Source: a virus
Reading direction: 5' to 3' (one strand)
Virus record (IMG/VR): IMGVR_UViG_3300017991_000356
Location: 1-27,050 of that record
DNA length: 27,050 nt
In this document: positions 5,874 to 26,361 of the stretch, piece after piece
Layout of the letters: each line of letters starts with the position of its first letter
Position numbering within the stretch: the first letter of the stretch is position 1
Translations under genes and position numbers: made by a program
The notes under the pieces: generated by a model
Databases searched by the model: none
Told to the model about the DNA's origin: nothing
What the model saw: only the letters and a program-made list of their open reading frames with translations

Positions 5874-6437
5874 TCATCCGTTGTCGGCCGCGTAGGCCGC
5901 CTTGAGCTTCTGCGAGCCGGTCATGTCGGCCGCGTTGGGATCGGCCGCCTGCGGCTTGGCCGGCGCGTCGGCGCCGACCTCGGGGAGCTTCCAGCCGTAG
6001 GCCTTGGCGTCGGCGGCGAGTTTCTCGCGGGCGGCCTTGAGGCCGGCCTCAAGCTCGCCCTCGTCGTCGGTCTCGGGGATGAGGCCGTGGTAGGCCTCGG
6101 GGAGCTTTCCGGCGCGGCCGGCGATGAACGCGGCGCGCTTCTCGGCAACCGCGGCCTTCGCGGCGGCGTCCTTCTCCGCCTCGCCGCGCGCGGCGTCGCG
6201 GGCGGCGAAGGCCTTGTCGATGAGCCGCTGGACGTCGGCGGCGACCTCCTCGGCGCTTCGCCCGCCGGCCGCCTGGACGGCCTCGACCTGGCTGAGCCCC
6301 TCGTCGAGCCGCTCGCCGAAGGCCTTGAGCGTCGCGGCCTGTTCGGCCGTGGCCGCCTGGGCGGCCTCCGTCGCGGCGGTTTTGGCCGCCTCCGTCGCGA
6401 CCTCCGTTGCCAGCTGCTTGACCTGCTCTTCGTCCAT
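5874..6437 (-). CDS. Capsid scaffold-like protein
   Basis: 187 residues from the ATG at 6437, chosen because GAGGAG lies about ten bases upstream; an in-frame ATG at 6485 would add 16 residues without a good site. The protein is extremely Ala/Glu/Lys rich with long helices (about 5-120, coiled coil), and ends with a basic C-terminal helix (TGSQKLKAAYA). This is the profile of phage scaffolding proteins, whose C-terminus binds capsid subunits. It lies directly upstream of the major capsid gene. I see no Ser/Asp protease motif of the Mu I protein type, so scaffold alone rather than protease-scaffold is the call. Confidence 0.7.
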   Translation of the reverse strand: MDEEQVKQLATEVATEAAKTAATEAAQAATAEQAATLKAFGERLDEGLSQVEAVQAAGGRSAEEVAADVQRLIDKAFAARDAARGEAEKDAAAKAAVAEKRAAFIAGRAGKLPEAYHGLIPETDDEGELEAGLKAAREKLAADAKAYGWKLPEVGADAPAKPQAADPNAADMTGSQKLKAAYAADNG

Positions 6438-6495: not shown

Positions 6496-6503
6496 GCTAT
6501 TCG
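6496..6503 (-). promoter_or_regulatory. Shared CGAATAGC octamer upstream of the scaffold gene
   Basis: On the minus strand CGAATAGC lies ten bases before the in-frame ATG at 6485. Identical octamers precede the genes starting at 12240 and 14239, each exactly five bases before ATG and without a Shine-Dalgarno site. Role unknown. Confidence 0.3.
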
Positions 6504-6521
6504 GATTGGCGGGCGGAAAGG

Positions 6522-10397: not shown

Positions 10398-10419
10398 GTC
10401 CACGCCTCTCTTTCCGCGA

Positions 10420-12240
10420 TCACCACTCGGCAGGCTTCGCCACGGCCCGCGCCCTCGGCGCGGCGGCCGCGTCGCGGGCGGCGGCCAGGCTCCAGAGCCA
10501 GGCCTCCAGGTAATCGTCCTTGATCCACGTCGTGGCCTGCTTGATCGGCTCGCCGCTGAACGGATTGACGACGTCGAGGACGCGCTTCTCCCGCTCGCCG
10601 CCGTAGCTCGGCACGGCGCCCGAGGCGTCCTCGGCGTAGTGCGTCAGCTCGGCGCGGAGGACGGTGTAGTACGGGCTGATCAGCGCGCGGCGGGTGATGA
10701 CCAGGCCGTTGGCGAACTGGACGAGCTGGTGCTTGGCCTGGGCCGTCATGTGGCGGATGCTCACCCGCTTGCCGAAGCGCTGGGTCAGGCACCACTCCCC
10801 GAGGTCGCTCGCCTGGTAGGCCTCCAGGCAGGCGGCGCCTATCCCCCACATGCGGTCGATCTCCAGGAGCCGCTTCTGGATCGGGTCGCGGAGTGCGTAC
10901 ATGAACTCCCACGCGCCCAGGAGCAGGTAGACCGTGCCGTCCGAGGGCTCGCGGCCAATTGCCTTGCCCCGCTCGTCGTAGACCTCGACCGGCTTGCCGG
11001 CTTGCGAGGGGATCAGCAGCCGCCCCGTCGCGCAGAGGACCGACCGGTCAGGCGTCTTGCTGAACGCGCCGGCCCGGTCCAGCCCGACGCCGACGGCCAG
11101 GCTGGCAAGGTCAGCCTCGATGCCGCGCGCGAGTTCGACGAGCCGCTCGCCGTGGACCATGGCCGGCGCGCCGGCGGCGAACAGCGGCGCGATCTGCTCG
11201 TCGGACCAGATCGCCTCGCCCGCCCCGCTCGGGCGGTTGCAGTGGTTCCGCAGGAACTCGCTGCGGATCATCTGCATGTAACGGCCGCGAACCCAGTCGG
11301 CGTCCAGCCAGGGGTGGATCGGCTCGGCGCCGTCCTCAAGCCCCTCGCCGCAGCCGCGCTTCAGCACGTCGGCGAGGTCGTCGAAGTGGATCCACACCGC
11401 GCCGATCGAGGCGTCGCCGACGCCGGGGTCCGGCTCGCGGCCCTCTTCGGCCGCCCGCGCCGACTCCTCGGCCGCCTGCTCCGCGAGCTTCACGTAGCGG
11501 TAGACGGGGTTGGACACGCTGCCCATGTTCGAATCCACGATCGCCAGGCCGCACCAGGCGTCGCCGGTGCTGGAGGCGCCGACCTGATAGACCGCGTCGT
11601 TGTGCGCCTTGCAGAGCTCCGTGTTGTGGTAGACGTCGATCCGCTGGCCGTACGCCGTGGACTCCTTGGCCGGTTGCACCTTGATCGTCGAGCCCGTGCG
11701 GTTGAACAGCACCAGCCCGGACTGGACGACGATGTCGCCGTCGGCGCTCAGCCGCTGGCCGAAGTACCACGCCAGGCGGCCGCGGAGCGCGGGCGAGTTG
11801 TAGAGCGTTTCCGTGATCGTCTTGAGGACGGTCTCCTCGCCCTGGTCCTCGCTGTTGGCCTGGATGACGATGAGCTGATCGTCGTAGGCGTCGGCGCGGT
11901 GGAGGTCGTAGAGGCCGGCGATCTCGCTCTTGCCGCAGCGGCGGGGCAGGCAGGGGATGATCGTCCGGTAGCGAAGCGTGCCGTTCGCGGTGACGGCCCA
12001 GAGCCGGCGGATGACCTCCCGCTGCCACTCGGCGTACCGCAGCGGCTGCCAGCCGCCGGCCTTGGCGTTGCGGTAGCAGTGGGCCTCGACCCACTCGATA
12101 TGCTCGTCGGGCGTGAAGTGCTTTCGGGCGGCGTCGCGCGGCCCGCGCTCGGCGGGCGCACCCTGCGCGCCGCCGCCGAGCAGGCCGGCGATCTGCCGGG
12201 CGGGGTCCGTCCGCTGTCGTTTCCGGGCGCGCTTGGCCAT
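10420..12240 (-). CDS. Terminase large subunit
   Basis: 606 residues. Walker A is CLPRRCGKSE (about 97-106), following a Q-rich adenine-contact region WQPLRYAEWQ (about 64-73). A Walker B-like segment IDVYHNTE (about 201-208) ends in the expected carboxylate, but has Asn-Thr where Asp is common. The C-terminal nuclease half begins near LAVGVGLDRAGAF (about 367-379), containing the first catalytic Asp, with further acidic residues toward VLDVVNPF and DDYLEAW. The protein pumps DNA into the prohead and cuts it. The ATG at 12240 has no Shine-Dalgarno but follows the shared CGAATAGC octamer by five bases. The small terminase lies upstream, separated by one structural gene. Confidence 0.88.
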   Translation of the reverse strand: MAKRARKRQRTDPARQIAGLLGGGAQGAPAERGPRDAARKHFTPDEHIEWVEAHCYRNAKAGGWQPLRYAEWQREVIRRLWAVTANGTLRYRTIIPCLPRRCGKSEIAGLYDLHRADAYDDQLIVIQANSEDQGEETVLKTITETLYNSPALRGRLAWYFGQRLSADGDIVVQSGLVLFNRTGSTIKVQPAKESTAYGQRIDVYHNTELCKAHNDAVYQVGASSTGDAWCGLAIVDSNMGSVSNPVYRYVKLAEQAAEESARAAEEGREPDPGVGDASIGAVWIHFDDLADVLKRGCGEGLEDGAEPIHPWLDADWVRGRYMQMIRSEFLRNHCNRPSGAGEAIWSDEQIAPLFAAGAPAMVHGERLVELARGIEADLASLAVGVGLDRAGAFSKTPDRSVLCATGRLLIPSQAGKPVEVYDERGKAIGREPSDGTVYLLLGAWEFMYALRDPIQKRLLEIDRMWGIGAACLEAYQASDLGEWCLTQRFGKRVSIRHMTAQAKHQLVQFANGLVITRRALISPYYTVLRAELTHYAEDASGAVPSYGGEREKRVLDVVNPFSGEPIKQATTWIKDDYLEAWLWSLAAARDAAAAPRARAVAKPAEW

Positions 12241-12245
12241 GGTGT

Positions 12246-12253
12246 GCTATTCG
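12246..12253 (-). promoter_or_regulatory. Shared CGAATAGC octamer upstream of terminase
   Basis: The octamer lies exactly five bases before the terminase ATG, in the same spacing as at 14245-14252. No ribosome-binding site is present. Possible promoter or translation signal; function not established. Confidence 0.35.
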
Positions 12254-12257
12254 TCAA

Positions 12258-12357
12258 ACCTGCCGGCAGGCAGGCAGGCAGGCGGCCCCCGCCGGGTGGA
12301 GCCGCGCCGAAGCGCTCCCGGCGGGGGCCAGGCAGGGCAGGCAGGGCAGGCGGGGCC
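12258..12357. repeat. Composite repeat: CAGG arrays around a 13-bp-arm hairpin
   Basis: Flanks are CAGG/CAGGCAGGG tandem units. In the centre, perfect 13-bp inverted arms (GGCCCCCGCCGGG at 12284-12296 and its complement at 12317-12329) enclose a 20-base loop. The block separates the terminase start from the upstream structural gene. A terminator role is possible but no T-run follows. Confidence 0.8.
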
Positions 12358-12929
12358 TACGTAAACGCCAGCTCCACGGTCTCGCGGCAGTCGAGCAGCG
12401 GGCTGCCGTAGCACGGGCGGACGATCAGATAGCGGCTGGCGGCCGCCGCCTCGGAGACCTCCAGGTCGAGATGCCCGCTGGCGTCGGTGGTCGCGCGGAT
12501 GGCGGCGGTGCCGTCGCCGGAGATGATCGTCCCCGCCGCGCCCGCGCCGTCGGAGATCGTCGCCGTCGCCGAGTCCCCGCCGGTGGCGGTGTCGGAGACG
12601 TGGACCTCCAGGACGTGGCTCTCGGCCAGGGCGTTGCCCTGGGCGTCGTCGAGCTGGAGCTGGACCTCGATCTTGTTGGCGGCCTCGGCGCCGGGCGCGC
12701 CCCAGTCCACCGCGACCAGCAGGTCGGCGACGGCGTCGGCGAGCTTGACGGCGGTCACGGCGCCGGCGGCCAGGGCGTCGGCGTCGACGGTGCCGTCGAC
12801 CGGGATCGCGTCGATCTGGTCCTGCAGGTCGATCAGGAGCTGGTCGAGGTGCTGGCTGCTGTTGGCCTCGAAGATCGAGGCGTCCCGCCGCAGTGCGGCC
12901 TTCTCTTCGTCTGTCAGTGCGATGCCCAT
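12357..12929 (-). CDS. Hypothetical structural/fibre-like protein between terminase genes
   Basis: 190 residues, no membrane segment. A GGAGG site precedes the ATG. Residues about 1-45 are helical (DEEKAALRRDASIFEANSS, then a Leu/Asp-rich coil), residues about 45-65 contain VDADALAAGAVTAVKLADAV, a motif seen in many phage fibre or baseplate proteins, and the last 110 residues are beta-rich with Asp/Gly loops, resembling an Ig-like or carbohydrate-binding sandwich (I-E-V-Q-L-Q-L-D-D-A-Q-G, then LDLEVSEA). It lies between the small and large terminase genes, where structural proteins are not usual. A minor capsid or decoration protein is plausible. Function unknown. Confidence 0.55.
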   Translation of the reverse strand: MGIALTDEEKAALRRDASIFEANSSQHLDQLLIDLQDQIDAIPVDGTVDADALAAGAVTAVKLADAVADLLVAVDWGAPGAEAANKIEVQLQLDDAQGNALAESHVLEVHVSDTATGGDSATATISDGAGAAGTIISGDGTAAIRATTDASGHLDLEVSEAAAASRYLIVRPCYGSPLLDCRETVELAFT

Positions 12930-12948
12930 GGCGGCCTCCAGGCAGGGG

Positions 12949-13488
12949 CTAAGGGTTAGGCGCCTTGGCGGCGACGAGCCGCTCGAACTCGGCGCGGACC
13001 TTGACGCCGTAGGCGGCGTCGAACTTGGGGACGACGCGGCGGATGGCCTCCATCAGGCAATCGACCGCGTCCTTGACGCGGGCCTGCTCGGCGAGGTCCA
13101 CGTCGAGCATCTTCGCCGTCGCCTTCGTGACGTTGACGTAGGCGTAGATCTCCTGGCTCATGTTGCCCTGCTCGGCGCTGGCGGCGGCGTCGAGGGCGCG
13201 GGCCTCCAGGCGGCCCTGGAGCTTGAGCAGGCCGGCCAGGTGCTTCTGCTTGGCGGCGACGAAGTCCGTCGTGACGGCCTCCTGCGCCGCCCGCTCGGCG
13301 TCGTAGCGCCGCTCCGACCAGGTCTTGCCCGAGGCGTCCGGGACGTAGGCCCAGCGCTCCAGCGTGCCGGCGCTCGGCGTGTCGGCGCCGGGGTGCCGGC
13401 GCCGGAGTTCCTTCGCGATCGCGGCGGGGGAGTTGCCGAGCAGGTACAGCTCGAAGGCCTCCGTGCGGACCTCGGGCGTGTAGGCCAT
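12949..13488 (-). CDS. Putative terminase small subunit (HTH, DUF1804-like)
   Basis: 179 residues. The ATG at 13488 overlaps the preceding stop by one base (TGATG). The N-terminus (MAYTPEVRTEAFELYLLG, then SPAAIAKELRR and TPSAGTLERWA, about 1-46) is a helix-turn-helix of the type in DUF1804/Mu-like small terminases that recognise packaging DNA. The rest is helical with an oligomerisation-like segment (about 75-165). It stands two genes upstream of the large terminase in the same order seen in Mu-like phages. The final four residues APNP and the stop come from a GGGTTAGG repeat, so the C-terminus has probably been modified by repeat insertion. Confidence 0.7.
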   Translation of the reverse strand: MAYTPEVRTEAFELYLLGNSPAAIAKELRRRHPGADTPSAGTLERWAYVPDASGKTWSERRYDAERAAQEAVTTDFVAAKQKHLAGLLKLQGRLEARALDAAASAEQGNMSQEIYAYVNVTKATAKMLDVDLAEQARVKDAVDCLMEAIRRVVPKFDAAYGVKVRAEFERLVAAKAPNP

Positions 13489-13802
13489 CAGTCCTTGCCC
13501 TCCAGGTCGTCCCAGGGCTTGTCGCGCTCCACGAAGGTCTTGCCCTCGGCCGCCAGGCGCCACCGCTTTTCGCGCTCGTGGGGGCGCACGGGGTGGCGCT
13601 CGACCGACCGCTCCACCAGGCCGCGCTGCTGGAGGTACGCCAGGTCGCGGAGGGTGTAGTCGGCCGTCTGCGGGTCGGGCAGGTCGAGCATGACGTCGAC
13701 CAGCTCGTCCTCCGGCAGCCATTTCGGGTAGGCCGCGTTCAGGAAGTCGAGCAGCAGGGCGCGCGACTCGCGGATCAGGGAGTGGCGGGCGTGGAAGGTC
13801 AC
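13488..13802 (-). CDS. Winged-helix phage protein (VpaChn25_0724-like)
   Basis: 104 residues starting at a GTG that shares GTGA with the upstream stop. A winged-helix pattern is clear: helix (LIRESRALLLDFLNAAYP), a second helix, LRDLAYLQQRGLVERS recognition-helix region (about 51-66) and a wing ending in KRWRLAAEGKTFV. Mu-like phages carry a small protein of this type immediately before the small terminase. It may bind DNA or take part in packaging regulation; its precise role in that family is not known to me. Coupled by one-base overlap to the terminase gene. Confidence 0.6.
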   Translation of the reverse strand: MTFHARHSLIRESRALLLDFLNAAYPKWLPEDELVDVMLDLPDPQTADYTLRDLAYLQQRGLVERSVERHPVRPHEREKRWRLAAEGKTFVERDKPWDDLEGKD

Positions 13803-14239
13803 GGGGCCTCCCCCTCAGCGCCGGCGGTCGGGCAGGCCCTCGCCGGGGCCTTGCAGGGCAAGCCCTTGACCTCGTCGAGCAGCTCGCGGTGGTTGGCGTT
13901 GACCGTTCTCATCAGCGTGCCGTAGAGCCGCATGCCCTCGTGGCGGGTCTGGTAGTGCTCCTTGACCTCGCCCGCGAGCTGCCAGACGCGGTCGCCCGTG
14001 CCCTGGTCGGCGTCGGCGCGGGCGTCCTTTTCCGCCGAGAGCGTGGCCGCGAGCTTGTCGAGCCTGCCGTCGAGCGCCGCGTGGGCCCTGTCGTTCTGGG
14101 CGATCAGGCGCCAGAGCAGGGCGCCCAGCACCGCGACGGCCAGGCCGACCACGAGGTTGACGACCCACAGCAGCACGCCGCCCACCGAGAGTTCCCGGAG
14201 GGCGGCGGCGGCGACGAGGCAGAAGACAGCAATCACCAT
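13799..14239 (-). CDS. Membrane-anchored coiled-coil protein (DUF2730-like position)
   Basis: 146 residues. Two hydrophobic stretches at the N-terminus (about 1-14 and 18-45) are followed by a helical coiled-coil segment (about 48-125, DGRLDKLAATLSAEKDAR) and a Cys-containing tail (PCKAPARACPTAG). In Mu-like phages a small membrane protein of the DUF2730 kind sits in this spot before the winged-helix and terminase genes, and that is my best match. A spanin-like or holin-related lysis role cannot be excluded, as no other lysis gene is visible. The start lacks a Shine-Dalgarno site and is preceded five bases away by the CGAATAGC octamer. Confidence 0.5.
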   Translation of the reverse strand: MVIAVFCLVAAAALRELSVGGVLLWVVNLVVGLAVAVLGALLWRLIAQNDRAHAALDGRLDKLAATLSAEKDARADADQGTGDRVWQLAGEVKEHYQTRHEGMRLYGTLMRTVNANHRELLDEVKGLPCKAPARACPTAGAEGEAP

Positions 14240-14244
14240 GGGGG

Positions 14245-14252
14245 GCTATTCG
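14245..14252 (-). promoter_or_regulatory. Shared CGAATAGC octamer, start of head operon
   Basis: Third occurrence of the octamer, five bases before the ATG of the DUF2730-like gene, the first gene after the largest intergenic gap. Good place for a late promoter, but no other promoter element is evident. Confidence 0.35.
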
Positions 14253-14285
14253 GATCGGGGAGAGGCAACAGGCAGAGGGGGACAG

Positions 14286-14370
14286 GGATTAGGGATTAGG
14301 GGTTAGGGATTAGGGATTAGGGGTTAGGGATTAGGGATTAGGGATTAGGGATTAGGGATTAGGGATTAGG
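14286..14370. repeat. GGATTAG/GGGGTTAG tandem array
   Basis: About 85 bases of heptamer GGGATTA with occasional octamer GGGGTTAG variants. It is telomere-like in appearance but heptameric. It is followed at 14371-14400 by CCTGCC tandem units. Together with the MITE at 14401-14516 it makes up almost the whole 304-base gap between genes. Confidence 0.95.
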
Positions 14371-14400
14371 CCTGCCTGCCCTGCCTGCCCTGCCTGCTGG

Positions 14401-14516
14401 GGCTGTCGATTTAATCGATGCCCAAAACGAGTGATAAGGACTTATGCGCATCTGCATTGCCGTAAGTCCTTTGTTTACGTTGCCCAGACAGGGCCTTCGC
14501 GACTAAACCGACAGTC
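14401..14516. mobile_element. 116-bp MITE-like element with 8-bp target duplication
   Basis: The ends are inverted repeats: GGCTGTCGATTTAATC at 14401-14416 and, on the other strand from 14516, GACTGTCGGTTTAGTC, 13 of 16 identical. Immediately outside both ends is CCTGCTGG (14393-14400 and 14517-14524), an exact 8-bp direct repeat. Inside is a perfect 9-bp inverted pair AAGGACTTA/TAAGTCCTT (14436-14444, 14463-14471) with an 18-base loop. Base composition is more AT-rich than its surroundings and it encodes nothing. Size and structure fit a non-autonomous element mobilised by a transposase elsewhere in the host. 8-bp duplications and GG/GA-CTGT ends would be compatible with families such as IS1595 or ISL3, but I cannot assign one. 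Confidence 0.8.
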
Positions 14517-14543
14517 CCTGCTGGCAGGCAGGGCAGGCGGGCG

Positions 14544-14972
14544 TCACTTGCCCGCCCCCCCGGTGCGGTCCAGCAGGGCGATGTGGCCGCCCAGCAGCCG
14601 GAGCCCGTTGGCGCGTTCGGCCATCTTGCCCGCCAGCGGCGAGCCGGGATGCTTCCGCGCGTAGCGCTCGTAGGCCATCGCCATTGTGTCCAGCTTTTCT
14701 AGGCAGCGCAGCAGGGTGGGCCCGTGAATCGCGCCGCCGGCGAAGTGCCTCGCGGTGTCCCCCAGGGACTCCAGTTCCGCCCGGATCTCCGCCAGCCTGC
14801 GCAGGCTCGCGTTGGCACCCATCGCGGACGCCAGCCGCGTTGCCGTGCCAAGCAGCTCAATAACATAGCCGCGCAGCCGGTCGAGGAGACAGTCGGGGCA
14901 CAGGCCGGCGTACGTCGAGACGTAGCCGTAGCCGGCCATGATTGTGCCGCAGCTGCTACACGTGTCCGCCAT
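14544..14972 (-). CDS. Small zinc-ribbon protein
   Basis: 142 residues. The N-terminus holds CSSCGTIM and CPDCLLDRL (Cys5, Cys8, Cys25, Cys28), a four-cysteine zinc-binding site, followed by a mainly helical body (about 30-140) with no recognisable domain. The GGAGG ribosome site lies inside the end of gemA, with which it overlaps by 17 bases, suggesting shared transcription. It is the last gene before the repeat-rich gap. The zinc ribbon suggests nucleic-acid or protein binding; in Mu-like phages genes near gemA are early or middle. Function not recognised. Confidence 0.55.
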   Translation of the reverse strand: MADTCSSCGTIMAGYGYVSTYAGLCPDCLLDRLRGYVIELLGTATRLASAMGANASLRRLAEIRAELESLGDTARHFAGGAIHGPTLLRCLEKLDTMAMAYERYARKHPGSPLAGKMAERANGLRLLGGHIALLDRTGGAGK

Positions 14973-15426
14973 GGGCCCTGCCCTCCGTGTTCGCCGCCCC
15001 CGCCTCGCGGCGGCGGCTGATCGCCTTGAAGCCCTCGATGAGCTTCGTGAGTTGGTAGCCGTTCAGCTCCTCGAACGGGCCGGCCCCGCCGCACGTCCGC
15101 CGACGCCAGGCGTCCGACTGCATGGGCGAGACCTCGTAGCCGTCCGGCACCACGCCGCAGAGGGCGTGGCAGAGGGCCGCCAGGTTGGCCTTGCCGTCGC
15201 CGGTCCTGCCCAGGCGGCCGAAGAACGCGGGCCGCCGGCCGCGCCGGCCGGACAGGTAGTTCAGCCAGTCGAGCACGTGGTTGACCTGGCGGTCGGACAG
15301 CTCGCGGCAACTCCGCTCGCCGGTGAGGGCCTCCAGGAGGTCGCGGTAAGCGGCGTCGGCGAGCCCCATGTCGCGCTTCGCCGCGTGGATCCGCCCGAGT
15401 TGTCTATGCCGTTGTTTCCTGTCCAT
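14956..15426 (-). CDS. gemA: GemA-like regulatory protein
   Basis: 156 residues. The N-terminus matches the Mu GemA (DUF1018) family: RQLGRIHAAKRDMGLADAAY (about 8-27), then R-D-L-L-E-A-L-T-G-E-R-S-C-R-E-L-S-D-R-Q-V, and a later conserved segment EELNGYQLTKLIEGFK (about 118-133). In Mu the protein affects host gene expression and DNA supercoiling; the exact mechanism is poorly understood. A GAGG site lies five bases before the ATG. In Mu, gemA is followed by mor; here it is followed by a zinc-ribbon protein and a repeat gap, with no Mor in sight. Confident at family level. Confidence 0.8.
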   Translation of the reverse strand: MDRKQRHRQLGRIHAAKRDMGLADAAYRDLLEALTGERSCRELSDRQVNHVLDWLNYLSGRRGRRPAFFGRLGRTGDGKANLAALCHALCGVVPDGYEVSPMQSDAWRRRTCGGAGPFEELNGYQLTKLIEGFKAISRRREAGAANTEGRAHGGHV

Positions 15427-15434
15427 AAAGACCT

Positions 15435-15800
15435 CTATCTCTCTTGGGGCTCGAAGCCCGACACTTCCACCGTCGCCCCGTCGAGCCGGTCGCGGAGGAC
15501 GGCGCGGCGATGGCGGGCGCGGTCGGCGCCGCCGGGGGCGGCGGGCCTGGCGCCCATGGTCCGCCGGAAGATCGCCAGCAGCCAGGCGGCCTGGCGCTCG
15601 GTCAGGCGGAGGCGGCCGGCCTCGGCCAGCTCGCCGGCCAGGTCGCGGACGAAGCCGTCCTCGGCCGCCGTGAACTCGACGGCCAGGTAGAGGGCGTGGT
15701 CGGTGTCGCCGTCGGCGAGCAGCGCCCGCAGCTCCCGGACGATCAGCCCGACCGTGATGCCCCGGACGGGCTGCTCGTACTCGGCGACGCGGCGGCTCAT
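15435..15800 (-). CDS. Hypothetical protein upstream of gemA
   Basis: 121 residues, translationally coupled to the HNH gene by ATGA. Helical throughout: VGLIVRELRALLADGDTD (about 17-34), an acidic helix FVRDLAGELAEAGRL (about 50-64), and LTERQAAWLLAIFRRT (about 66-81), a short segment that resembles phage replication-region proteins of unknown function. The tail is basic, then ends with a short beta segment (TVEVSGFEPQER). No membrane segment or cysteines. The frame continues open for about 800 bases upstream, but that part is antisense-like shadow of the HNH gene. Function unknown. Confidence 0.55.
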   Translation of the reverse strand: MSRRVAEYEQPVRGITVGLIVRELRALLADGDTDHALYLAVEFTAAEDGFVRDLAGELAEAGRLRLTERQAAWLLAIFRRTMGARPAAPGGADRARHRRAVLRDRLDGATVEVSGFEPQER

Positions 15801-16794: not shown

Positions 16795-17436
16795 CTACGG
16801 CCGCTCCTTCCCGAGGGCGCGGGCGATGTTGTGGTAGGCGGCCTCGAACTGCTCGGCCTGCTCGTGCGTGATGAACACGGGGCCGTAGGCGTCGGCGAGC
16901 GCGGCGCGCTCGGCCTCCCAGGCCTCCGGGTCGTCCTTGAGGGCGTCGAGGAAGTTCCGCACGAGGCGCACCACGCTCTGCCGCCGCGTGGGCGGGAGCT
17001 TGGCCAGGTCCTTCATGCAGACGGGCCGGGCCTGGCCGCCGGCCTCGCCGTCGTCCGGGATCAGCAGATCGAAGAGCATCATCTGCCCGACCTCGACGGC
17101 CGTCATCCGCGAGAGGGCCTTCATCAGCCGGGCGTTGCCGATGAGGTAGCTCCGCGTCCGCTCGCGGTGCAGGCGGACGCGGAGGGCCCGCTGCCGCTCG
17201 TCCTGGATCGAGTCCAGGTGGACGTAGCCGAAGCCGCGCTCGCCGAGGGTGATCGGCTCGCCGCCGTCGCGGGCGAGCCGCACGCACTCGCGGACCGCGC
17301 GGGCGGCGTAGGCGAACTCGCTTTGCCAGCCGAGCCGGCCGGCGATCTGCTCGGCGGTCAGCCCTGGTTTCTCCCGTATGCAGCGGACGACGCTCGCGGT
17401 CATCCGCTCCGCTTCTGCTTCCTTGATCCGTGCCAT
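16795..17436 (-). CDS. Hypothetical winged-helix-like protein
   Basis: 213 residues with a strong AAGGAG site seven bases ahead of the ATG. The first 90 residues look like a winged helix: MTASVVRCIREKPGLTAEQI, then LGWQSEFAYAARAVRECVRL, then a short wing ERGFGYVHL. The rest is helical and acidic (about 95-213) with a conserved-looking RQSVVRLVRNFLDALKDD (about 152-169). The C-terminus ends one turn before the HNH start. It probably binds DNA, but I cannot name a family. The neighbours (sigma-like factor, small acidic protein upstream; HNH and gemA downstream) place it in the regulatory middle region. Confidence 0.5.
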   Translation of the reverse strand: MARIKEAEAERMTASVVRCIREKPGLTAEQIAGRLGWQSEFAYAARAVRECVRLARDGGEPITLGERGFGYVHLDSIQDERQRALRVRLHRERTRSYLIGNARLMKALSRMTAVEVGQMMLFDLLIPDDGEAGGQARPVCMKDLAKLPPTRRQSVVRLVRNFLDALKDDPEAWEAERAALADAYGPVFITHEQAEQFEAAYHNIARALGKERP

Positions 17437-17470: not shown

Positions 17471-17665
17471 CTAGTCGGCGAAGCCCACGAGTTGGACGGC
17501 GACCTCGTCGAGGCGGTGCGCCCGCGCGTGCGGCAGGCACGCCGCGATGCACTCGTCCAGGGCCTCGCCGTCCGCGATGTAGATGTACGTGTCGCCGCCG
17601 CTGTCCTCGCCGTAGGCGGCGTAGGCGTCGGCGTCCTCTCGCTCGATCCAAATCCTGGTCAGCAC
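17471..17665 (-). CDS. Small acidic protein with GTG start
   Basis: 64 residues, starting at GTG 17665, with GGGAGG upstream; it overlaps the end of the sigma-factor gene by seven bases (GTGCTGA). Contents: VLTRIWIEREDADAYAAYGE, then a short beta segment TYIYIAD and a helix ALDECIAACLPHARAH, ending in VAVQLVGFAD. Many acidic residues. Being coupled to a sigma-like factor, it could be an anti-sigma or cofactor, but this is only an inference from position. It is too short for family recognition. Confidence 0.4.
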   Translation of the reverse strand: MLTRIWIEREDADAYAAYGEDSGGDTYIYIADGEALDECIAACLPHARAHRLDEVAVQLVGFAD

Positions 17666-18318
17666 TTCCTGCCTCCCTTGCGCGCTGCGCGGCGGCCCGC
17701 CGGGCCCCGCGCCGCCAGGGGCGACCGCCGCCCCCGGATGAACTCCACGGCGTGCTTGCGCATGGCGGTGACGGCGGTCGGCGGCAGGCCGAGGATGTCG
17801 GCGATGCGGCGGTCCGGCGTCGCGTAGACGAACCACAGGTAGAGGATCGCCCGCACCGTCGCGGGCAACCCGAAGAAGAGCTTCTCGGCGGCGTCGGCGA
17901 CGGTGTCGCGGTCGGCCTTGCGGGGGCTCTCGATCAGGGCGCCCAGCGGGACGGCGCGGTCGGCGTCGGTGCCGAAGAGCGGGTGGTCGAGGCTGAACTT
18001 CGGCCCCTTGATCCCCTCGGCCCGCTGGTTGCGGCTCAGCTCGTCCCACCGGCGGATGCCGTCCAGGACGGCCCGCTTGCACCGCTGGTAGAGGTAGGCG
18101 CGGAGCGACACGTGCTCCGGCCGCCGGTTGCGCGCGATCCCGTCGCACAGGCCCATGAGGGCCTCCTGCCGGTAGTCCTCATAGTCCATGCCGTTGAGGT
18201 AGCCCTGGCGGTCGCCGATGTCGCGGGCCGCCTTCTCGGCGAGATCGCGGTGGGCCTCGAAACACGCCACCTGCTGTGGCCCGGTCAACTCCAGCTTTAT
18301 CTCTGCCTTCCGTGGCAT
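17659..18318 (-). CDS. Phage-encoded sigma-70-like factor
   Basis: 219 residues. Region 2 is recognisable at about 15-95: YEDYRQEALMGLCDGIARN (about 46-64), RAYLYQRCKRAVLDGIRRWDEL (about 73-94), the aromatic/basic core and -10 contact helix of sigma factors. Region 4 is at about 150-196: LPATVRAILYLWFVY, DRRIADILGLPPTAVTAM and RKHAVEFIRG, a helix-turn-helix for the -35 element. A variable linker lies between. The tail is very basic. There is no region 1 or 3, so it is of the small, ECF-like kind. It sits in the middle of the leftward operon, between MuB-like and gemA genes, where Mu has no sigma factor. It is a strong candidate activator for middle or late transcription. Confidence 0.75.
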   Translation of the reverse strand: MPRKAEIKLELTGPQQVACFEAHRDLAEKAARDIGDRQGYLNGMDYEDYRQEALMGLCDGIARNRRPEHVSLRAYLYQRCKRAVLDGIRRWDELSRNQRAEGIKGPKFSLDHPLFGTDADRAVPLGALIESPRKADRDTVADAAEKLFFGLPATVRAILYLWFVYATPDRRIADILGLPPTAVTAMRKHAVEFIRGRRSPLAARGPAGRRAARKGGRKC

Positions 18319-18338
18319 GAGGCGCTCACTCCGTTCGC

Positions 18339-18397
18339 TTAGGGGGCTAGGGGCCAGGGGCTAGGGGTTAGGGGCTGGGGGCTGGGGATCAGGGGTT
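18339..18397. repeat. GGGGCTAG/GGGGTTAG repeat at gene end
   Basis: Degenerate TAGGGGC(T/C) units straddle the stop codon of the 94-residue gene and fill the short gap before the sigma gene. The translated tail IATPDPQPPAPNP of the 94-residue protein comes from this repeat. Confidence 0.75.
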
Positions 18398-19049: not shown

Positions 19050-19928
19050 CTATCCCGCGCGGCACGCGCGGACGGCCTCGGCCATCAGGTCGCGGTCGAT
19101 GGTCTGGGCCTTGATCCGCCAGGCCTCGTGGAGGGCGAGGCTGACGACGTTGTTGACGGCGAGGGGGTGGTCCCGGCTGGTCAGCGGGTTGCGGCCGGCG
19201 AGCCGGCCGAGTTCCTCGAAGGCCCCCTCGTCGAGCGGCGCGGGGCGAGGGCCCTTCGCGCAGCAGCGGGCCCACTCGTGCTGGACGTACGCGGCGGTGT
19301 GCTTGCCCAAGCCCGGCAGCGTGGCGACCTCCGCCCGCTGGTCGATCTCGGCGATGCCGCCGACGGCCCGCAGCAGCGGGGGCTGGCCGATCAGCACGAC
19401 GGCGAGCAGGCGGTCGAAGCCGTAGAGGTCGTCCCACAGCCGCTTGCAGGCGAGGAGGAACCGGCGGCTGCACGCGTGGGCGTCGTTGACGGCGAGGACC
19501 ACCGTCGTGCCCCGGTCGTTGCAGTCCTCCAGGAGGCGGCGGCACTGGCGGGCGCGGTCCTCATAGGAGCGGGCCAGCCGCCGCTGCGGCGAGCCGTCCG
19601 GCGGCTCGATGCCGTACTTGATGGCGTGGTAGAGCGTCGTCTCCCGGTAGCGGTGCGGGTCGAGCCCCTGGGGCTCGGCCACCCAGGCGAGGCCGCCGGC
19701 GTCTCGGACCCGCCGCCTGGCCTCCCGCCAGGCGACGCTCTTGGCGCTGCAGGCGGCCCCGGCGACGACGAGGAACTGCCTGCAGGTGACGGCCTCGACG
19801 ATGCGGCCGACCAGCGCGTCGAAGGCCGGCCAGAGGAACAGCCCCCCGGCCTCCTCGACGTGCGTGCTGAACGGCCGCTTCGTCCGCGTCAGCTTCCAGT
19901 AGTCCTTGCATCGGTTCGTCAGTTCCAT
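19050..19928 (-). CDS. MuB/ExeA-like AAA ATPase, transposition target protein
   Basis: 292 residues. The order and pattern match MuB/ExeA/TnsC-type ATPases: RPFSTHVEEAGGLFLWPAF near the N-terminus (about 18-36), a P-loop at VVAGAACSAKSV (about 54-65), a Walker B region TTVVLAVNDAHA (about 141-152), the sensor-type strand LLAVVLIGQPPLL (about 174-186) and the helix LGKHTAAYVQHEWARC. In Mu such a protein selects target DNA and activates the transposase. Both core motifs are altered: GAACSAKS lacks the usual Gly before Lys, and the Walker B reads N-D-A-H rather than D-E-A-H. It may bind nucleotide poorly, or use it differently. Downstream of the transposase and a ParB-like gene. Confidence 0.75.
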   Translation of the reverse strand: MELTNRCKDYWKLTRTKRPFSTHVEEAGGLFLWPAFDALVGRIVEAVTCRQFLVVAGAACSAKSVAWREARRRVRDAGGLAWVAEPQGLDPHRYRETTLYHAIKYGIEPPDGSPQRRLARSYEDRARQCRRLLEDCNDRGTTVVLAVNDAHACSRRFLLACKRLWDDLYGFDRLLAVVLIGQPPLLRAVGGIAEIDQRAEVATLPGLGKHTAAYVQHEWARCCAKGPRPAPLDEGAFEELGRLAGRNPLTSRDHPLAVNNVVSLALHEAWRIKAQTIDRDLMAEAVRACRAG

Positions 19929-19964: not shown

Positions 19965-20813
19965 TCACTTGTCCGTCGCGATCGGGAATGGGTCTGCGAA
20001 GGCGTCGCCCCATTGGGGCTGCTTATACCCCTCTTTGCCACGCAGGAAGGCGCTCAGCGCAAGCGCCGCGTTCCTGTACGTCAGCGCGTACCGCCTGTAT
20101 CCGCCCGTCTCGTCGGCGAGTCCGAGGAGCCTATCCCGCAGAGACCGCATCACCTTGGCGCCGCCGAAGTCCTCGGTGCGCAGGGCGAATGCGGCCTTCA
20201 AGAGGGCGGGCTCATCGCGGCCTTCCTGCAGCCACGCCCGCCCCCAGGCGGCGTAGACGCCAGCGACGGTCAGCTTCCGTCTGAAGGTCGGGAACGCCTT
20301 CCTGGCGAAGTCCACCGCTAGGCACAGGGATTGGTAGATCGGGATGATCTCCACATTGGCAATCGACCGGCTTCCCCGCCCCCCGCGACGGATCGCGCGG
20401 ACGATCGTGGCCACGTGTCGTTCATGCCCGCCGGGAACCACGCCGGCGAACCTCAGTGCGTCTGCGTTCGATCGGGTGCGGTTATTGTCGATGTACTTCA
20501 GGCCATCAGCCGGCCAGTCACGTATCGTGTAAAACCACCAGCTAATGCCGGTCTCCCAGACAGCCATGAAACGGTGATTCCCGTCGAGGACGATCTGGCA
20601 CCCGGCCTGATCGTTCCAGCCCAGCAGAATGACGCTTGGACCCCCGAGGTCCGTCCTCAGCAGCCGCTTGTACTCCTCCACTTTCCTCTGGTAGAGCTTC
20701 CTGTTGTACTTAAGACTCACGTCCAACTCGGCCCGGCACTCCTCAGGCGTCCATAATTTCCACTCGCCAGCGTGATTACAGCGGTCCCATCCGTTCGGCA
20801 GTTTCGCATTCAT
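19965..20813 (-). CDS. ParB/Srx-domain protein, low-GC insert
   Basis: 282 residues from ATG 20813 with GAAGGAG six bases ahead. The N-terminal half has the ParB/sulfiredoxin-like motif: VILLGWNDQAGCQIVLDGNH (about 61-80, core DGNHR at 77-81), then ADGLKYIDNNRTRSNADALR (about 102-121). This pattern (DGxHR followed by ID..xRs.aD.L) is widespread in phage and mobile-element proteins and sometimes acts as a nuclease or NTP-using clamp. The C-terminal half is helical (about 140-282). Composition differs from its neighbours: two 60-base lines I counted are 52-53% GC against 72% for a line in the transposase, suggesting separate acquisition. It sits between the MuA- and MuB-like genes, where Mu has nothing. 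Confidence 0.65.
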   Translation of the reverse strand: MNAKLPNGWDRCNHAGEWKLWTPEECRAELDVSLKYNRKLYQRKVEEYKRLLRTDLGGPSVILLGWNDQAGCQIVLDGNHRFMAVWETGISWWFYTIRDWPADGLKYIDNNRTRSNADALRFAGVVPGGHERHVATIVRAIRRGGRGSRSIANVEIIPIYQSLCLAVDFARKAFPTFRRKLTVAGVYAAWGRAWLQEGRDEPALLKAAFALRTEDFGGAKVMRSLRDRLLGLADETGGYRRYALTYRNAALALSAFLRGKEGYKQPQWGDAFADPFPIATDK

Positions 20814-20848: not shown

Positions 20849-22495
20849 TTATCCGGCGCCGTTCGCGGCGCCGGGCAGTATCTCCTGTGTCAGCGACGCC
20901 ACGGCGGCGTCGATCTGTGACTGTGTGACCTGGCCGCCCCAGCCCAGCGCCGCGCGTTCGTGGCGCTCCAGGGCCCGCCCGATGGCGTCGACCAGCTTGC
21001 GGAGCGCGCGGGTCCGGGGATACGCCGGCCCGGTGCGGGGCGCGACGCGGAGGGGGGGCACGATCTCCGGGGGCTCGACCTCGGGCAGCGAGGCGGCCCC
21101 CACGGCGGGCGGCCCCGGCGGCAGCGGCGCGGCGAGCCGAAGCTCGCGGCCGGCGTCGCGGGCCTCGATCGCGGCGTCGCGGCGGTCCTTGCGGAGGTCG
21201 GCGTCCTCGACGTAGCCCAGGCCGTTGCGGGTGAGGGCCTGGGAGATGACGACCGTCTCGGGGGCGGCCTCCAGCGCCACGCGGACCGGCCGGGCGGCCT
21301 CGTCCCAGTCGAGGACGCACTTCCAGACGAAGACCTTTTTGCCCCGCTCGATGCCCTCCAGGGCGCGGACGGAGTAGTCGCGGCCCTCGAACTCGATGAG
21401 GCCGCGAGCGTTGACGGTCCGCCTGACGCGGGCCGTCGCCGCCGCCTCGCAGTAGCGCTCGTAGGGCGGCGGCAGGTGCGCGGTCTTGCGGTACTCGGCG
21501 TAGACCTCGGCCGGCGTCCGCTTGGTCCGCCGGTGGATGTGGGTGGCGCAGTACTTGGCGGCGAAGGCCTCCGCCCGCTCGTTCAACTCGTCCAGGCCCC
21601 CCGCCGGCCAGAGGCGCAGCTCGCTCTCCAGCGCTCGCTGCCAGGTGTCCATGAACTTCTCGACCGCGCCCTTGGCCCACGAGTGGCCGGTCGCGTGCGC
21701 GCGGTGGTCGATGCCGAGTTCGTCGCAGACGTTCTTGCAGGCCGCCGACATGTTGCCGGGCCCCTTGTCGAGGACGAGCACGTCGAACACGCCGGACATC
21801 GGGCACTGCTGGGGGTACGGGCCGGGCTGCATGACGTACCACAGGAAGTCGAGCAGGTGATCGGCGGTCTCCCCGGCGACCTGGTAGTACTTGACGCGGA
21901 AGCAGCCGCTGGGGGGGTCGACGGCCGCGTAGCGGATGATCGGCGGCGTCTTGTTCGGCTTGTTGCGGTTGACCTCCCAGTCCTCGGCGAAGCGGATCCG
22001 CCGGCCGGCCTCATCGACGACGAACCACTGCCGGCAGTTCGTCGAGTCCACCTGCGTGGTGTGGCCGGGCTCGCCCCAGTCGATCTGCCGGCAGATGCGC
22101 GGGCCCTTCGGGGCGCGGCGCTCGATGCCCTCGCGCCGCATGTAGCGGTCTACGTAGTGGGCGGGCAGGTCGCAGTCCGGGTCGATCAGGCCGATGCCCC
22201 TGGCGACGTCGATGGCCCGCCACGTGGGCATGTCGCCGGCGGCCTTGACCAGCAGCGTGGCCACGGCGTCGGCGGCGGCGTCGCGCGCCGGGTCGCGGGG
22301 CTTGCCCGCGTCGCGGCGGCGGGCGTAGCCGAAGTCCACGCCGCAGTCCTTCTTCAGCCGCCGGCGCAGGTGGCCGACGGAGATGCCGTAGCTGCCGGCC
22401 GCGCCGGCGATCAGCGCCGCCCGCTCCGCCCGCGCCTCGGCGGCGCGGACGCGGCGGGCGATCTCGTGGAGGACGTTGTCGGCGAGCGGGGGCAT
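20849..22495 (-). CDS. DDE transposase, MuA-like
   Basis: 548 residues. The catalytic triad is clear: D150 in HTTQVDSTN, D243 in VLVLDKGPGN and E279 in WAKGAVEKFMD, with 35 residues between D243 and E279 (DD35E, integrase core). An N-terminal helix-turn-helix (YGISVGHLRRRLKK, about 36-49) and further DNA-binding helices precede the core. The C-terminal domain (about 340-548) has the mu-transposase beta-barrel-like segment (VNARGLIEFEGRDYSVRALE) and a Pro-rich linker, then a helical tail that in MuA binds the MuB partner. It integrates and replicates the phage by transposition. Its start is three bases after the stop of the upstream gene, so it is probably cotranscribed with the early genes. 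Confidence 0.85.
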   Translation of the reverse strand: MPPLADNVLHEIARRVRAAEARAERAALIAGAAGSYGISVGHLRRRLKKDCGVDFGYARRRDAGKPRDPARDAAADAVATLLVKAAGDMPTWRAIDVARGIGLIDPDCDLPAHYVDRYMRREGIERRAPKGPRICRQIDWGEPGHTTQVDSTNCRQWFVVDEAGRRIRFAEDWEVNRNKPNKTPPIIRYAAVDPPSGCFRVKYYQVAGETADHLLDFLWYVMQPGPYPQQCPMSGVFDVLVLDKGPGNMSAACKNVCDELGIDHRAHATGHSWAKGAVEKFMDTWQRALESELRLWPAGGLDELNERAEAFAAKYCATHIHRRTKRTPAEVYAEYRKTAHLPPPYERYCEAAATARVRRTVNARGLIEFEGRDYSVRALEGIERGKKVFVWKCVLDWDEAARPVRVALEAAPETVVISQALTRNGLGYVEDADLRKDRRDAAIEARDAGRELRLAAPLPPGPPAVGAASLPEVEPPEIVPPLRVAPRTGPAYPRTRALRKLVDAIGRALERHERAALGWGGQVTQSQIDAAVASLTQEILPGAANGAG

Positions 22496-22498
22496 TGG

Positions 22499-23335
22499 TC
22501 AGACTCCTGCGTCGGCCTCGGCGTCGGTCATGCCGAGCGCGGCGGTGTAGATGGGGTAGAGCGTGTCCTGCCAGTACTCGTCGAACTGCCCCTTCATGCG
22601 CTCCAGCATGGAGGCGTAGATGCCGAGGCCCGCCTTCGTCCTCGGGGGGTTCTGCTGCATGCGGACGAGGGGCCGCCAGAGCCAAGCCTCAATGAGCTGC
22701 GCCCGCTTCTCGTCGTCTTGGATGCCCGGCGGGATGTGCGCCAGGTCGCCCTCGTCGCGGAGGCGCTTCACCTCCCGCTCGAGGGCCTCGATCCGCCCGT
22801 CGCGGCTGGCGAGCTGCTCGCGGCCCTTTTCGATCTTCTTGGCCTGCCTGTCCGCCTCGGCGGCGAGTTCCGCGTAGGTCTTGATGACGGCGTCCGGGTC
22901 GGCGAGGCGCTTGTCGATGTCCGGGTCGTCGAGGGCGGGCTCCGCGTCGTCCAGGCTCAGGGCCTTGACGGTCTCTGCCGGCAACGCCTTGCCGGCCGTC
23001 CGACGGAAGGCGAGCATCCAGTGTCTCACCGTCCGGATGTTCAGGCCGGGGAAGTGCTCCTCTATGTAGGCCGTCCAGGTGCCGTAGGCGGCCTTCTCGC
23101 GGAGCATCCAGAACCTGGCCCCGATCTCGATGGTGTTCATGGCGAGGGAGTGCATGAAGACCAGGATCTCCGCCCTGGTCTCGGCCTCGGCCGCCGGCGA
23201 CCAGTGCTGGATCCGGTCGGCCATGGCCGAGCCGCGCAGGAGGCCGCTCATCTCCCCGGCGCGTTTCTCAATGGCGGCGATCTGCTCCGGCGTCAGCGCC
23301 ACGGCCAGTGCGTTCTTGTGTGATATAGTGCCCAT
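22499..23335 (-). CDS. DUF3102-like early protein
   Basis: 278 residues. The start at ATG 23335 is chosen because GAGG is six bases ahead; ATGs at 23338 and 23347 are also possible. Residues about 64-110 (EIGARFWMLREKAAYGTWTA, then FPGLNIRTVRHWM) match the DUF3102 pattern, a helical segment with a helix-turn-helix flavour seen in phage and plasmid genes near replication proteins. A coiled coil occupies about 150-196. The C-terminal part is helical with P-L-V-R-M-Q-Q-N-P-P-R. It is immediately upstream of the transposase and probably in the same operon. A partition, DNA-binding or accessory transposition role is possible. Not assigned. Confidence 0.55.
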   Translation of the reverse strand: MGTISHKNALAVALTPEQIAAIEKRAGEMSGLLRGSAMADRIQHWSPAAEAETRAEILVFMHSLAMNTIEIGARFWMLREKAAYGTWTAYIEEHFPGLNIRTVRHWMLAFRRTAGKALPAETVKALSLDDAEPALDDPDIDKRLADPDAVIKTYAELAAEADRQAKKIEKGREQLASRDGRIEALEREVKRLRDEGDLAHIPPGIQDDEKRAQLIEAWLWRPLVRMQQNPPRTKAGLGIYASMLERMKGQFDEYWQDTLYPIYTAALGMTDAEADAGV

Positions 23336-23355
23336 CATGATCCTCATTGGTTATA

Positions 23356-23379
23356 AAAGCGGCAACCTGTTGCCGCTTT
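23356..23379 (-). terminator. Perfect 11-bp-arm hairpin upstream of the DUF3102 gene
   Basis: Arms AAAGCGGCAAC and GTTGCCGCTTT are separated by two bases. Read leftward it is followed by a TTTTAT run, so it looks like an intrinsic terminator or attenuator between the small early genes and the transposition genes. It could alternatively be an operator. Confidence 0.55.
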
Positions 23380-23693
23380 CAAAGACGGAGTTCCTTTGCT
23401 GCAAACGACTTAAGCGGTTGCCGGTCGGGGCCATTCCGCCAGCAGTGGCCGGCGGGGTCGGGGGCGCGGACGGCGCCGGCGGCGCTGCGGATCGCCTCGA
23501 CACGCTCGGCCGGCGGGCCGGCGGCGAGCCAGTCGCGGTAGGCCCGGATGACATACCAGGCCCTGCCGTACGCCACGCGGTCGAAGTGCCACTCCAGATA
23601 GTCGATCCAGCGGCCCTCGGGGCACCGGCGGCGGAGGGCGCCGAGGGCGCAGCCCATGATGAGTGTGCGGCTGTTGGGCGTGTGGCGGGCCAT
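23379..23693 (-). CDS. Hypothetical early protein
   Basis: 104 residues. Basic N-terminus, then RRRCPEGRWIDYLEWHFDRV and RAWYVIRAYRDWLAAG (about 22-41 and 43-58), a Trp/Tyr-rich helical pattern; a low-complexity Ala segment follows. Cysteines do not form a paired site. Coding is inferred from position in a tight series of leftward genes and from the stop lying against the palindrome at 23356-23379. No family recognised. Confidence 0.4.
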   Translation of the reverse strand: MARHTPNSRTLIMGCALGALRRRCPEGRWIDYLEWHFDRVAYGRAWYVIRAYRDWLAAGPPAERVEAIRSAAGAVRAPDPAGHCWRNGPDRQPLKSFAAKELRL

Positions 23694-23694
23694 T

Positions 23695-24946: not shown

Positions 24947-24989
24947 AATCACGCTCCTTCGGGTTACGTGGTGTTACGCGGCGCACGGT

Positions 24990-25253
24990 CTACGCTCCCT
25001 TGGGTTCCGCCGCATCGTCGCGGGCCAGCTCCGGGTGGACGTACTTGCCGAAAAGCTCCGAGGGGCGGCGGCGGCAGAGGCGGGCGAGGCCCGCCTGGAC
25101 GCGGGCGGACCGTTCGCGGCATATGGCCACGTCGCACACGTGGCTGCGCGAGACGCCGATCCGCTCGGCCGCTCGCTTCCACGTGCCGGTGCCCCCAAGC
25201 CCGTTCTTGGCGAGCAAGAGTGCGATGACCGCCTTGACAACCTCGGGCCTCAT
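24990..25253 (-). CDS. First early gene, Ner/Cro-like HTH protein
   Basis: 87 residues. ATG 25253 follows an AGGA site by nine bases; an in-frame ATG three codons upstream overlaps that site. A helix-turn-helix spans about 22-46 (TWKRAAERIGVSRSHVCDVA), followed by a helical segment (RVQAGLARLCRRRPSELFGK). As the first gene leftward of the divergent promoter region, opposite the repressor, it corresponds in position to Ner of Mu or Cro of lambda, which turn down early and repressor transcription. The name is by position and HTH only. Confidence 0.55.
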   Translation of the reverse strand: MRPEVVKAVIALLLAKNGLGGTGTWKRAAERIGVSRSHVCDVAICRERSARVQAGLARLCRRRPSELFGKYVHPELARDDAAEPKGA

Positions 25254-25272
25254 TGCTATCATTCCTAGTAGG

Positions 25273-25338: not shown

Positions 25339-25356
25339 CTACATGCCTCAATGTAG
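25339..25356. promoter_or_regulatory. Operator-like dyad CTACAT-N6-ATGTAG
   Basis: A perfect 6-bp inverted repeat with 6-base spacer in the divergent control region. It covers the -10 box of the leftward promoter, so a repressor bound here would block early transcription. Confidence 0.5.
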
Positions 25357-25377
25357 CTCGCCGTGGTGTGATGTCAA
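25350..25377 (-). promoter_or_regulatory. Leftward early promoter
   Basis: A perfect -35 TTGACA (25372-25377, minus strand), 16-base spacer, and -10 TACATT (25350-25355, 4 of 6). It is the best sigma70-like promoter in the gap and points to the early operon, with predicted start near 25343. Confidence 0.6.
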
Positions 25378-25482: not shown

Positions 25483-26361
25483 ATGTCTCAGAAGGAGTTG
25501 GCTGCGGCCGCCGGCGTCGATGCAACTACACTAGGCCGCTACATAGCAGGCACTTACCGCATGCCGGTCGAGATCGCCGCCTCCGTGTGCGAGATACTCA
25601 GCGTCAGCCCGACCTGGCTGCTGCTGGGAGACGGCCCGCAGGGCCTCGGCGAGCTGGACGTGGCGTCCTTAACTATAGAAGAACTCACCAAGGCGTGGGC
25701 CGGGCGGACGGTCGCCCTCTACGAGCGTGCCGAGGCGACGCGAGAGGCGCTCGAGGAGACGAACCGCACGCTGGCGTTGCTCGTGTCCCAGGGGGCGGGG
25801 CCCCAGGCGGCGGCCGAAGCACGCGCGAGAAACGGGCCGAAGCCGCCGGAGACGCTCAGCCGCGAGGACTACTGGGCGGGCGGCGGCCCGGAGGCGTTCA
25901 CGGAGCACGTGCCGATCGTCAACATCGCGGCGGCGGGGGCGTGGGCGGACACGGCCCAGGCGGAGGCCTACGAGCCGGGGGACGCCGAGGAGTTCCTCGA
26001 CCTGAGCGGGTCGGGCCCGCCGGCCGGCGCGATCGCCGTGCGGCTCAAGGGCTCCTCCATGGAGCCGCAGTACCACGGGGGCGACCTCGTGGTGGTGGAC
26101 ACGCGCAAGCGGGCGGCCTGCGGCCGGGCGGCCGTCATTATCTATAGGGCGCGGCGGCAGGAGGCCGGCGCGGACGCCGAGAGCGAGGCCCGCGTCCCGG
26201 CGTTCAAGATCTACAGGCACACGCGGGGCGGGGCCGTGCTGGAGAGCCTCAACCCGGCACACGGGCCTATCGGGCTCGCGGACGACCAGATCGTGGCCGC
26301 CTGGCCGGTGCTCGAACACCTGCGGGCCCCGAGGGAGAAGACGGATGAGCGAACTCGATGA
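25483..26361 (+). CDS. Phage repressor, HTH plus S24/LexA-type autoprotease
   Basis: At least 292 residues from the first ATG. N-terminal helix-turn-helix (QKELAAAAGVDATTLGRYIA, then YRMPVEIAASVCEILSVSP) of the XRE type. The C-terminal half is an S24 peptidase: Ala151-Gly152 is a candidate self-cleavage site (NIAAAGAWAD), catalytic Ser192 is in LKGSSMEPQYHGGDLVVVD and Lys242 in AFKIYR. This predicts RecA-stimulated cleavage and induction by DNA damage, as for lambda CI, unlike Mu's own repressor. The open frame upstream of the ATG encodes the missing first helix (GRRLRDALGA) but offers no ATG, GTG or TTG, so the real start may be ATA at 25450 or CTG at 25462. Confidence 0.85.
   Translation: MSQKELAAAAGVDATTLGRYIAGTYRMPVEIAASVCEILSVSPTWLLLGDGPQGLGELDVASLTIEELTKAWAGRTVALYERAEATREALEETNRTLALLVSQGAGPQAAAEARARNGPKPPETLSREDYWAGGGPEAFTEHVPIVNIAAAGAWADTAQAEAYEPGDAEEFLDLSGSGPPAGAIAVRLKGSSMEPQYHGGDLVVVDTRKRAACGRAAVIIYRARRQEAGADAESEARVPAFKIYRHTRGGAVLESLNPAHGPIGLADDQIVAAWPVLEHLRAPREKTDERTR

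Follow-up and report, generated by a model that had tools for sequence, protein, structure and literature searches.

A FliA-like sigma factor as the likely substitute for Mor/C in the late control of a Mu/B3-like planctomycete phage

What is a gene that looks like a sigma factor doing between the MuB-like gene and gemA of a Mu-like phage? In Mu itself, mor comes after gemA. The Mor protein acts with the host sigma-70 holoenzyme, according to PMC4390567. The first-pass annotation of the locus described here had suggested that a small sigma-70-like factor takes the place of Mor/C and redirects the host RNA polymerase. We examined this using profile and structure comparisons, a search for relatives and for Mor, and a count of words upstream of late genes.

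A sigma factor gene in the early operon

The window, the whole stretch of DNA that was analyzed, is a linear virus fragment of 27,050 bases with Mu/B3-like gene content. Several markers of that group are found, namely a DDE transposase, a MuB-like ATPase, GemA and Mu/B3-type head genes, and portal and capsid genes are present as well (Table 1). Sigma-70-like sites in the window are confined to the repressor and early switch, with none in 1-12300. Between the MuB and transposase genes, an ORF (19965-20720) has a ParB-like look by eye (LDGNHR). All relatives carry, near the start of the operon, a second small winged-helix-like regulator with the motif GPTDVxRxTGxxKGTxS.

Table 1. Features of the window in order along the early and late genes; gene calls are from a home-made caller.
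Feature	Position	Strand	Remark
CI-like repressor, HTH and S24 peptidase domain	25561..26361	+	Start uncertain; homology from 25483
Sigma-70-type promoter-like site TTGACA-16-TACATT ahead of early operon	25350..25377	-	Consensus match only
Ner-like HTH gene, first in early operon	24990..25262	-	Kept in all relatives
Second winged-helix-like regulator	24563-24889 (L006 8073-8462; L012 2956-3327; L009 16479-16889)		By eye, tblastn for some pairs
DDE transposase, B3-type A protein	20849..22495	-	
MuB-like AAA ATPase	19050..19928	-	
Phage sigma factor, 219 aa, ATG start	17659..18318	-	By profile, orthologue and fold comparison
Sigma region 2, PF04542 match	18049..18261	-	Six-frame search, E=2.6e-10
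Region 2.4/3.0 segment with D86, R89, R96, R99	18022..18063	-	Invariant in four phage sigmas
Sigma region 4, residues 151-191	17746..17868	-	Weak alone, backed by orthologues
Acidic ORF, 64 aa, GTG start overlapping sigma stop	17471..17665	-	Not conserved in relatives
213-aa protein, winged-helix N-terminus	16795..17436	-	Next conserved gene after sigma, all four phages
GemA	14956..15426	-	E=1.2e-9
Cys-rich 142-aa protein at place of Mu mor	14544..14972	-	Without Mor similarity
Long imperfect inverted repeat, early/late junction	14373..14560	-	RNA fold -100 kcal/mol, z=-6.5
Candidate -10 element TCCGAATA	14247..14254	-	T 15 nt before first-late-gene ATG; without SD
First late gene, small membrane-associated protein	13799..14239	-	
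Candidate -10 element GACGAATA	12248..12255	-	15 nt before terL ATG; without SD
Terminase large subunit (terL)	10420..12240	-	
Candidate -10 element TCCGAATA	6498..6505	-	68 nt before scaffold-position gene start
Scaffold-position head gene	5874..6437	-	Role inferred: sits between minor head protein and major capsid protein

The Pfam family Sigma70_r2 (PF04542) covers residues 20-90 of the 219-aa protein above its cut-off of 24 (E=4.9e-8, 33.1 bits), while the Sigma70_r4_2 match to residues 151-191 is weak (E=0.016, 15.3 bits, below the cut-off of 25.7). Of these, region 2 is the part of a sigma that binds core and contacts the -10 element, and region 4 the part for the flap and the -35 element. 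Region 4 shows up clearly in orthologue P0004, as it does when an orthologue profile is matched to FliA. Across both regions, the protein matches TIGR02937 (residues 19-195, E=8e-11) at 41.8 bits, slightly under the cut-off of 42.9, and PHROG_351, 'RNA polymerase sigma factor' (residues 20-195, E=2.6e-8). Two orthologues lie above the TIGR02937 cut-off with 52.0 and 64.8 bits, which settles the sigma identity of the window protein. Confidence in the predicted fold is low (mean pLDDT 56), and a Foldseek search with this model brought up sigma factors or RNA-polymerase complexes in the 50 best PDB matches, three of the top entries being integrative models titled as ribosomal-protein/RNA-polymerase pairs; against viral models, the matches were mostly phage sigma factors. 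Since the TM-scores are only about 0.3, we give these fold matches modest weight. Judged by these profile, orthologue and structure comparisons, the product of 17659-18318 is a real sigma-70-family protein, and this part of the first-pass annotation is confirmed.

Its closest kin by profile match is the FliA/WhiG (sigma-28) branch. A profile built from three orthologues has FliA/sigma-28 as its top PDB match (E=8e-11), covering both regions 2 and 4. On the curated full-length FliA/WhiG model TIGR02479 the phage proteins score 33.0, 30.5 and 60.3 bits, far under the cut-off of 189.6, and they are shorter between regions 2 and 4; we therefore call the protein FliA-like rather than FliA, with FliA/WhiG as the nearest group and not as a statement of membership. 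Residues D86, R89 and R96 of the window sigma, invariant in the four phage sigmas, align with D81, R84 and R91 of FliA, which we take to be the residues that read the GC-rich start of the FliA -10 element. A 2009 study by Koo is said to be the key paper on these residues.

The 64-aa acidic ORF coupled to the sigma gene, which had been proposed as its cofactor or anti-sigma, is real in that its GTG start overlaps the sigma stop. It has zero homologues in the relatives, making it unlikely as an essential cofactor or anti-sigma, and we rejected that role.

Relatives of the phage and the absence of Mor

A terminase search of IMG/VR led to three contigs, among them G003, a 41.6-kb virus contig whose sigma is 37% identical to that of the window (E=6e-24). 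A search with a transposase alignment found L012, a 10-kb contig of a Planctomycetales MAG (sigma 43%, E=2e-46), and a profile search of Planctomycetales found a fourth sigma copy in G418 (E=3e-41), where the prophage is seen as a chromosomal copy. Terminase alone succeeded among the single-protein scans of IMG/VR, those with sigma, transposase and capsid returning zero relatives; alignment scans (sigma, transposase, terminase and MuB) gave the same contigs again, and among 50,697 phage records tblastn detected nothing related to the sigma.

Gene order in the window, G003, L012 and G418 is ner, transposase, MuB, a number of small genes, sigma and the winged-helix protein. The gemA gene follows further downstream in the window, G003 and G418, and L012 stops within the winged-helix gene. 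Across the relatives, the sigma is kept at 31-43% identity to the window protein, which argues for maintenance by selection. The sigma profile matched, among 392 planctomycete genomes, that of L012 and, weakly, one ordinary host FliA-like sigma (G313, rejected as a phage sigma); with matches so restricted, this looks like a phage-specific sigma family. In the window the early genes share one direction with the late genes, as in Mu, whereas the two arms are opposed around the repressor in G003, G001 and G418, as in B3. The difference among close relatives is what an inversion of the early module would look like. An acyl-carrier-protein-like small gene of the early operon, recognized by eye, lies directly before the sigma of the MAG prophage (L012 8759-9094).

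A search with PF08765 (Mor) gave no match in the window, a fragment without the tail region, nor in G003, G001 and G002. The same search found Mor in B3 and in two cyanobacterial B3-like phages, Lsp-JY19 and Mae-JY22 (E=4e-19 to 6e-22). Sigma70_r2 shows the reverse distribution, being absent from B3, Lsp-JY19 and Mae-JY22 and present in the window and G003. B3 carries mor directly after gemA. In G418, gemA (22803-23393) is the last prophage gene, and the next ORF (23577-25067) points the other way and looks chromosomal; the tail arm lies off the contig that was read, and nothing in the whole 5.2-Mb assembly exceeds the cut-off for Mor (best E=0.13). The Cys-rich 142-aa ORF of the window was considered as a divergent Mor and rejected for want of similarity. 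The expectation that these phages have no Mor/C therefore held beyond the window, both right after gemA and across an entire lysogen assembly. What had also been claimed is that such a control scheme is unusual for a transposable phage. This probably holds for a sigma replacing Mor/C, but the absence of Mor/C itself has a precedent in Leptospira transposable prophages, which share the B3-like layout with gemA at one end and for which no sigma factor is reported (PMC8705779).

A motif upstream of late genes

The upstream gaps of 32 late and 21 early genes were collected from three phages (window, G003 and G001). A motif was first spotted in these gaps by eye, and all words were then counted with none preset. 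The top 6-mer of the late gaps is TCCGAA, found in 12 of the 32 and in all three phages against 1.07 expected from genome frequency (500 shuffles gave a mean of 1.5 and a maximum of 6), and the top 7-mer is TCCGAAT. Late gaps hold 12 sense copies of TCCGAA and 1 antisense copy, and 1 of the 21 early gaps has the word. No pattern of this kind occurs in the Mor-bearing phages.

Three junctions have the motif in the window, G003 and G001 alike, those before the first late gene, terL and the scaffold-position gene, the terL copy being degenerate in G001 (TTTTTCGAA, adjoining a terminator-like hairpin) and reading GACGAAT in the window. The window itself has 3 copies of CGAATAG, all at late junctions (P=3e-6, for a word picked after looking); for TCCGAAT, which was defined mainly by G003, the corresponding value in the window is 6e-4. 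A search for a shared promoter motif of non-host type before the genes starting at 14239 and 12240 had been proposed, and CGAATAG stands 13 nt before the ATG of both, with TCCGAA(T) in three relatives. G418 was read after the motif had been fixed and has TCCGAAT 3 times in 58 kb, each time on the late strand and once at each of these junctions, with the consensus AAATTCCGAAT; P is 2e-7 for the stretch as a whole and 3e-5 within the late arm. G003 has 5 copies of the long form TTTCCGAATCYC in its 41.6 kb, as opposed to 0-8 copies per planctomycete genome of 2.7-8.1 Mb.

At seven sites in four phages (two each in the window, G003 and G418, and one in G001, which counts only if an upstream in-frame ATG is the start) the T of the motif lies 14-15 nt before the ATG. 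If transcription began about 7 nt past the element, the RNA end would fall at or next to this ATG. By an automated count, none of the four genes with the motif 11-16 nt upstream has an SD, compared with 77 of 98 others (P=0.003); outside that count, the first late gene of G001 and terL of G418 carry SD-like words. Where the element is more distant, an SD lies in between at most sites. The sigma-28 consensus is TAAAGTTT-n11-GCCGATAA (PMC2859248), and TCCGAAT(A/C) shares CCGA in register with its -10 part. No -35 element, including none of the TAAA type, is visible at a fixed spacing upstream of the late motifs.

The intergenic DNA has other features of its own. An Rfam search of 12200-15500 found no match. 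Early transcription might terminate at the inverted repeat that lies at the early/late junction. This repeat contains AAGGACTTATG, an 11-mer which also opens contig L012 (1-11); this could be chance, or a phage-end or transposase site. Arrays of CCCTAAT/CCCTAGC-type heptamers occupy intergenic DNA at 14240-14370, at 1-32 and ahead of the sigma gene (~18319-18375). Late intergenic DNA of G003 (L006, L007) holds long and nearly perfect palindromes such as GGCACTAGGCAATAGG..., which in many cases directly precede the TTTTCCGAATC motif.

Late control by the sigma and its alternatives

We consider it likely, from comparative sequence evidence, that the FliA-like phage sigma runs the late genes of this Mu/B3-like planctomycete phage in place of Mor/C. 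Once the CI-like repressor is lifted, host polymerase of the sigma-70 type would transcribe the early operon (ner, A, B, sigma, the winged-helix gene and gemA), and the sigma would accumulate from it and bind the host core polymerase. The resulting holoenzyme would then start late transcription of the first late gene, terminase and head genes at several dispersed promoters, whose hallmark would be a -10-like element, (aa)TTCCGAAT. With a start about 7 nt past the element, some late mRNAs would be leaderless. The sigma identity, the late motif and the lack of Mor all support the earlier suggestion of a phage sigma that redirects host polymerase; we infer the binding to core, the reading of the motif, the use of these promoters and the timing.

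The chief rival is that the motif is read by another phage regulator, in which case the neighbouring winged-helix protein (16795-17436) would be the likeliest candidate, as a Mor-like activator of host polymerase, and the sigma would do something else or join it. In all four phages its gene is the first conserved one after the sigma gene, its conservation equals or exceeds that of the sigma (48-51% versus 34-43%), and its N-terminus is modelled with confidence as a winged helix. We nevertheless regard this as unlikely, given a motif that is short, asymmetric and strand-specific (12 sense, 1 antisense), unlike a dimer operator, that sits at a start-site-like distance from the gene, and that is similar to the -10 element of the sigma's nearest kin. 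It is very unlikely that a divergent or distant Mor/C still governs the late genes from the missing tail part or elsewhere: the window is only a 27-kb fragment and G003 breaks off some 30 nt past gemA, but the place after gemA is read through in the window and G418 with no Mor there, the rest of the G418 assembly holds none above the cut-off, and the search readily detects Mor in distant B3-like phages.

Some Bacillus phages carry sporulation-like sigma factors that reprogram the host. The present sigma would be scarcely probable as a cargo gene of this sort outside late control, since four divergent phages (31-43% identity) all have it at one and the same place of the core early operon and not at a variable cargo spot, Mor is absent and the motif is specific to late genes; that phage sigmas with host-directed roles exist (also mentioned in PMC8705779) is what speaks for it. 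Finally, TCCGAAT may be taken for a terminator tail, an RNA-processing site or a translation signal and not for a promoter element, and several G003 and G001 sites do come after hairpins with T-runs, while some sites lie 14-15 nt before an ATG. We find this highly improbable, as the first-late and scaffold sites of the window and the sites of G418 have no T-run of four, and the distance to the ATG varies from 14 to more than 60 nt, most of the distant sites having an SD between motif and ATG, as would be expected if the word marks a start site and not if it is a translation signal.

Late control by the phage sigma can be set beside several known systems. FliA/WhiG offers the best profile match in regions 2 and 4, the equivalents of D81/R84/R91 and a -10, GCCGATAA, that resembles TCCGAAT(A), but the phage late sites have no visible TAAA-type -35 and the phage gene lies in an early operon. 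The likeness to B3 and the Beetrevirus group extends to the transposase, the MuB-like ATPase, GemA, the head genes and, in G003, G001 and G418, the opposed arms around the repressor; B3 differs in having Mor right after gemA and no sigma, where the phages described here lack Mor and carry their sigma between B and gemA. With Mor/C of Mu the system would have in common that the phage itself supplies the early-to-late switch, from a gene in its early part, and uses host core polymerase for it, except that here a putative sigma-70 replacement takes the part of an activator. T4 late transcription of the gp55 type, in which gp33 and gp45 are partners, combines -10-only promoters with a clamp and the gp33 co-activator. 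Like gp55, the protein is a phage sigma with candidate late promoters that consist of a -10-type element without a -35 (PMC2988020), but the phage here is temperate and transposable, and the common ground is the sigma fold.

It is already known that phage sigmas are common, that transposable phages are classical and that a transposable phage without Mor/C has been described. A literature search that had most subscription journals outside its reach found no paper on sigma factors in transposable phages, and none on the combination of a sigma and a matching late motif replacing Mor/C. The late-gene switch of these viruses is probably of a kind not described for transposing viruses. With moderate confidence we extend this to a clade of transposable phages that would have swapped Mor/C for a sigma of sigma-28 kin, with a dispersed late regulon, -10-only promoters (TTCCGAAT) and several leaderless mRNAs. 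Among transposable phages Mor/C serves as a marker gene, and why some lineages do without it has so far had no explanation. A sigma-driven late regulon, if true, would be one concrete answer to the missing Mor/C and would come with a precise promoter, in the planctomycetes, a phylum with phages that have received little study. A further suggestion is that a conserved group of phages can exchange its mode of late control, with an activator that helps sigma-70 giving way to a sigma that replaces it.
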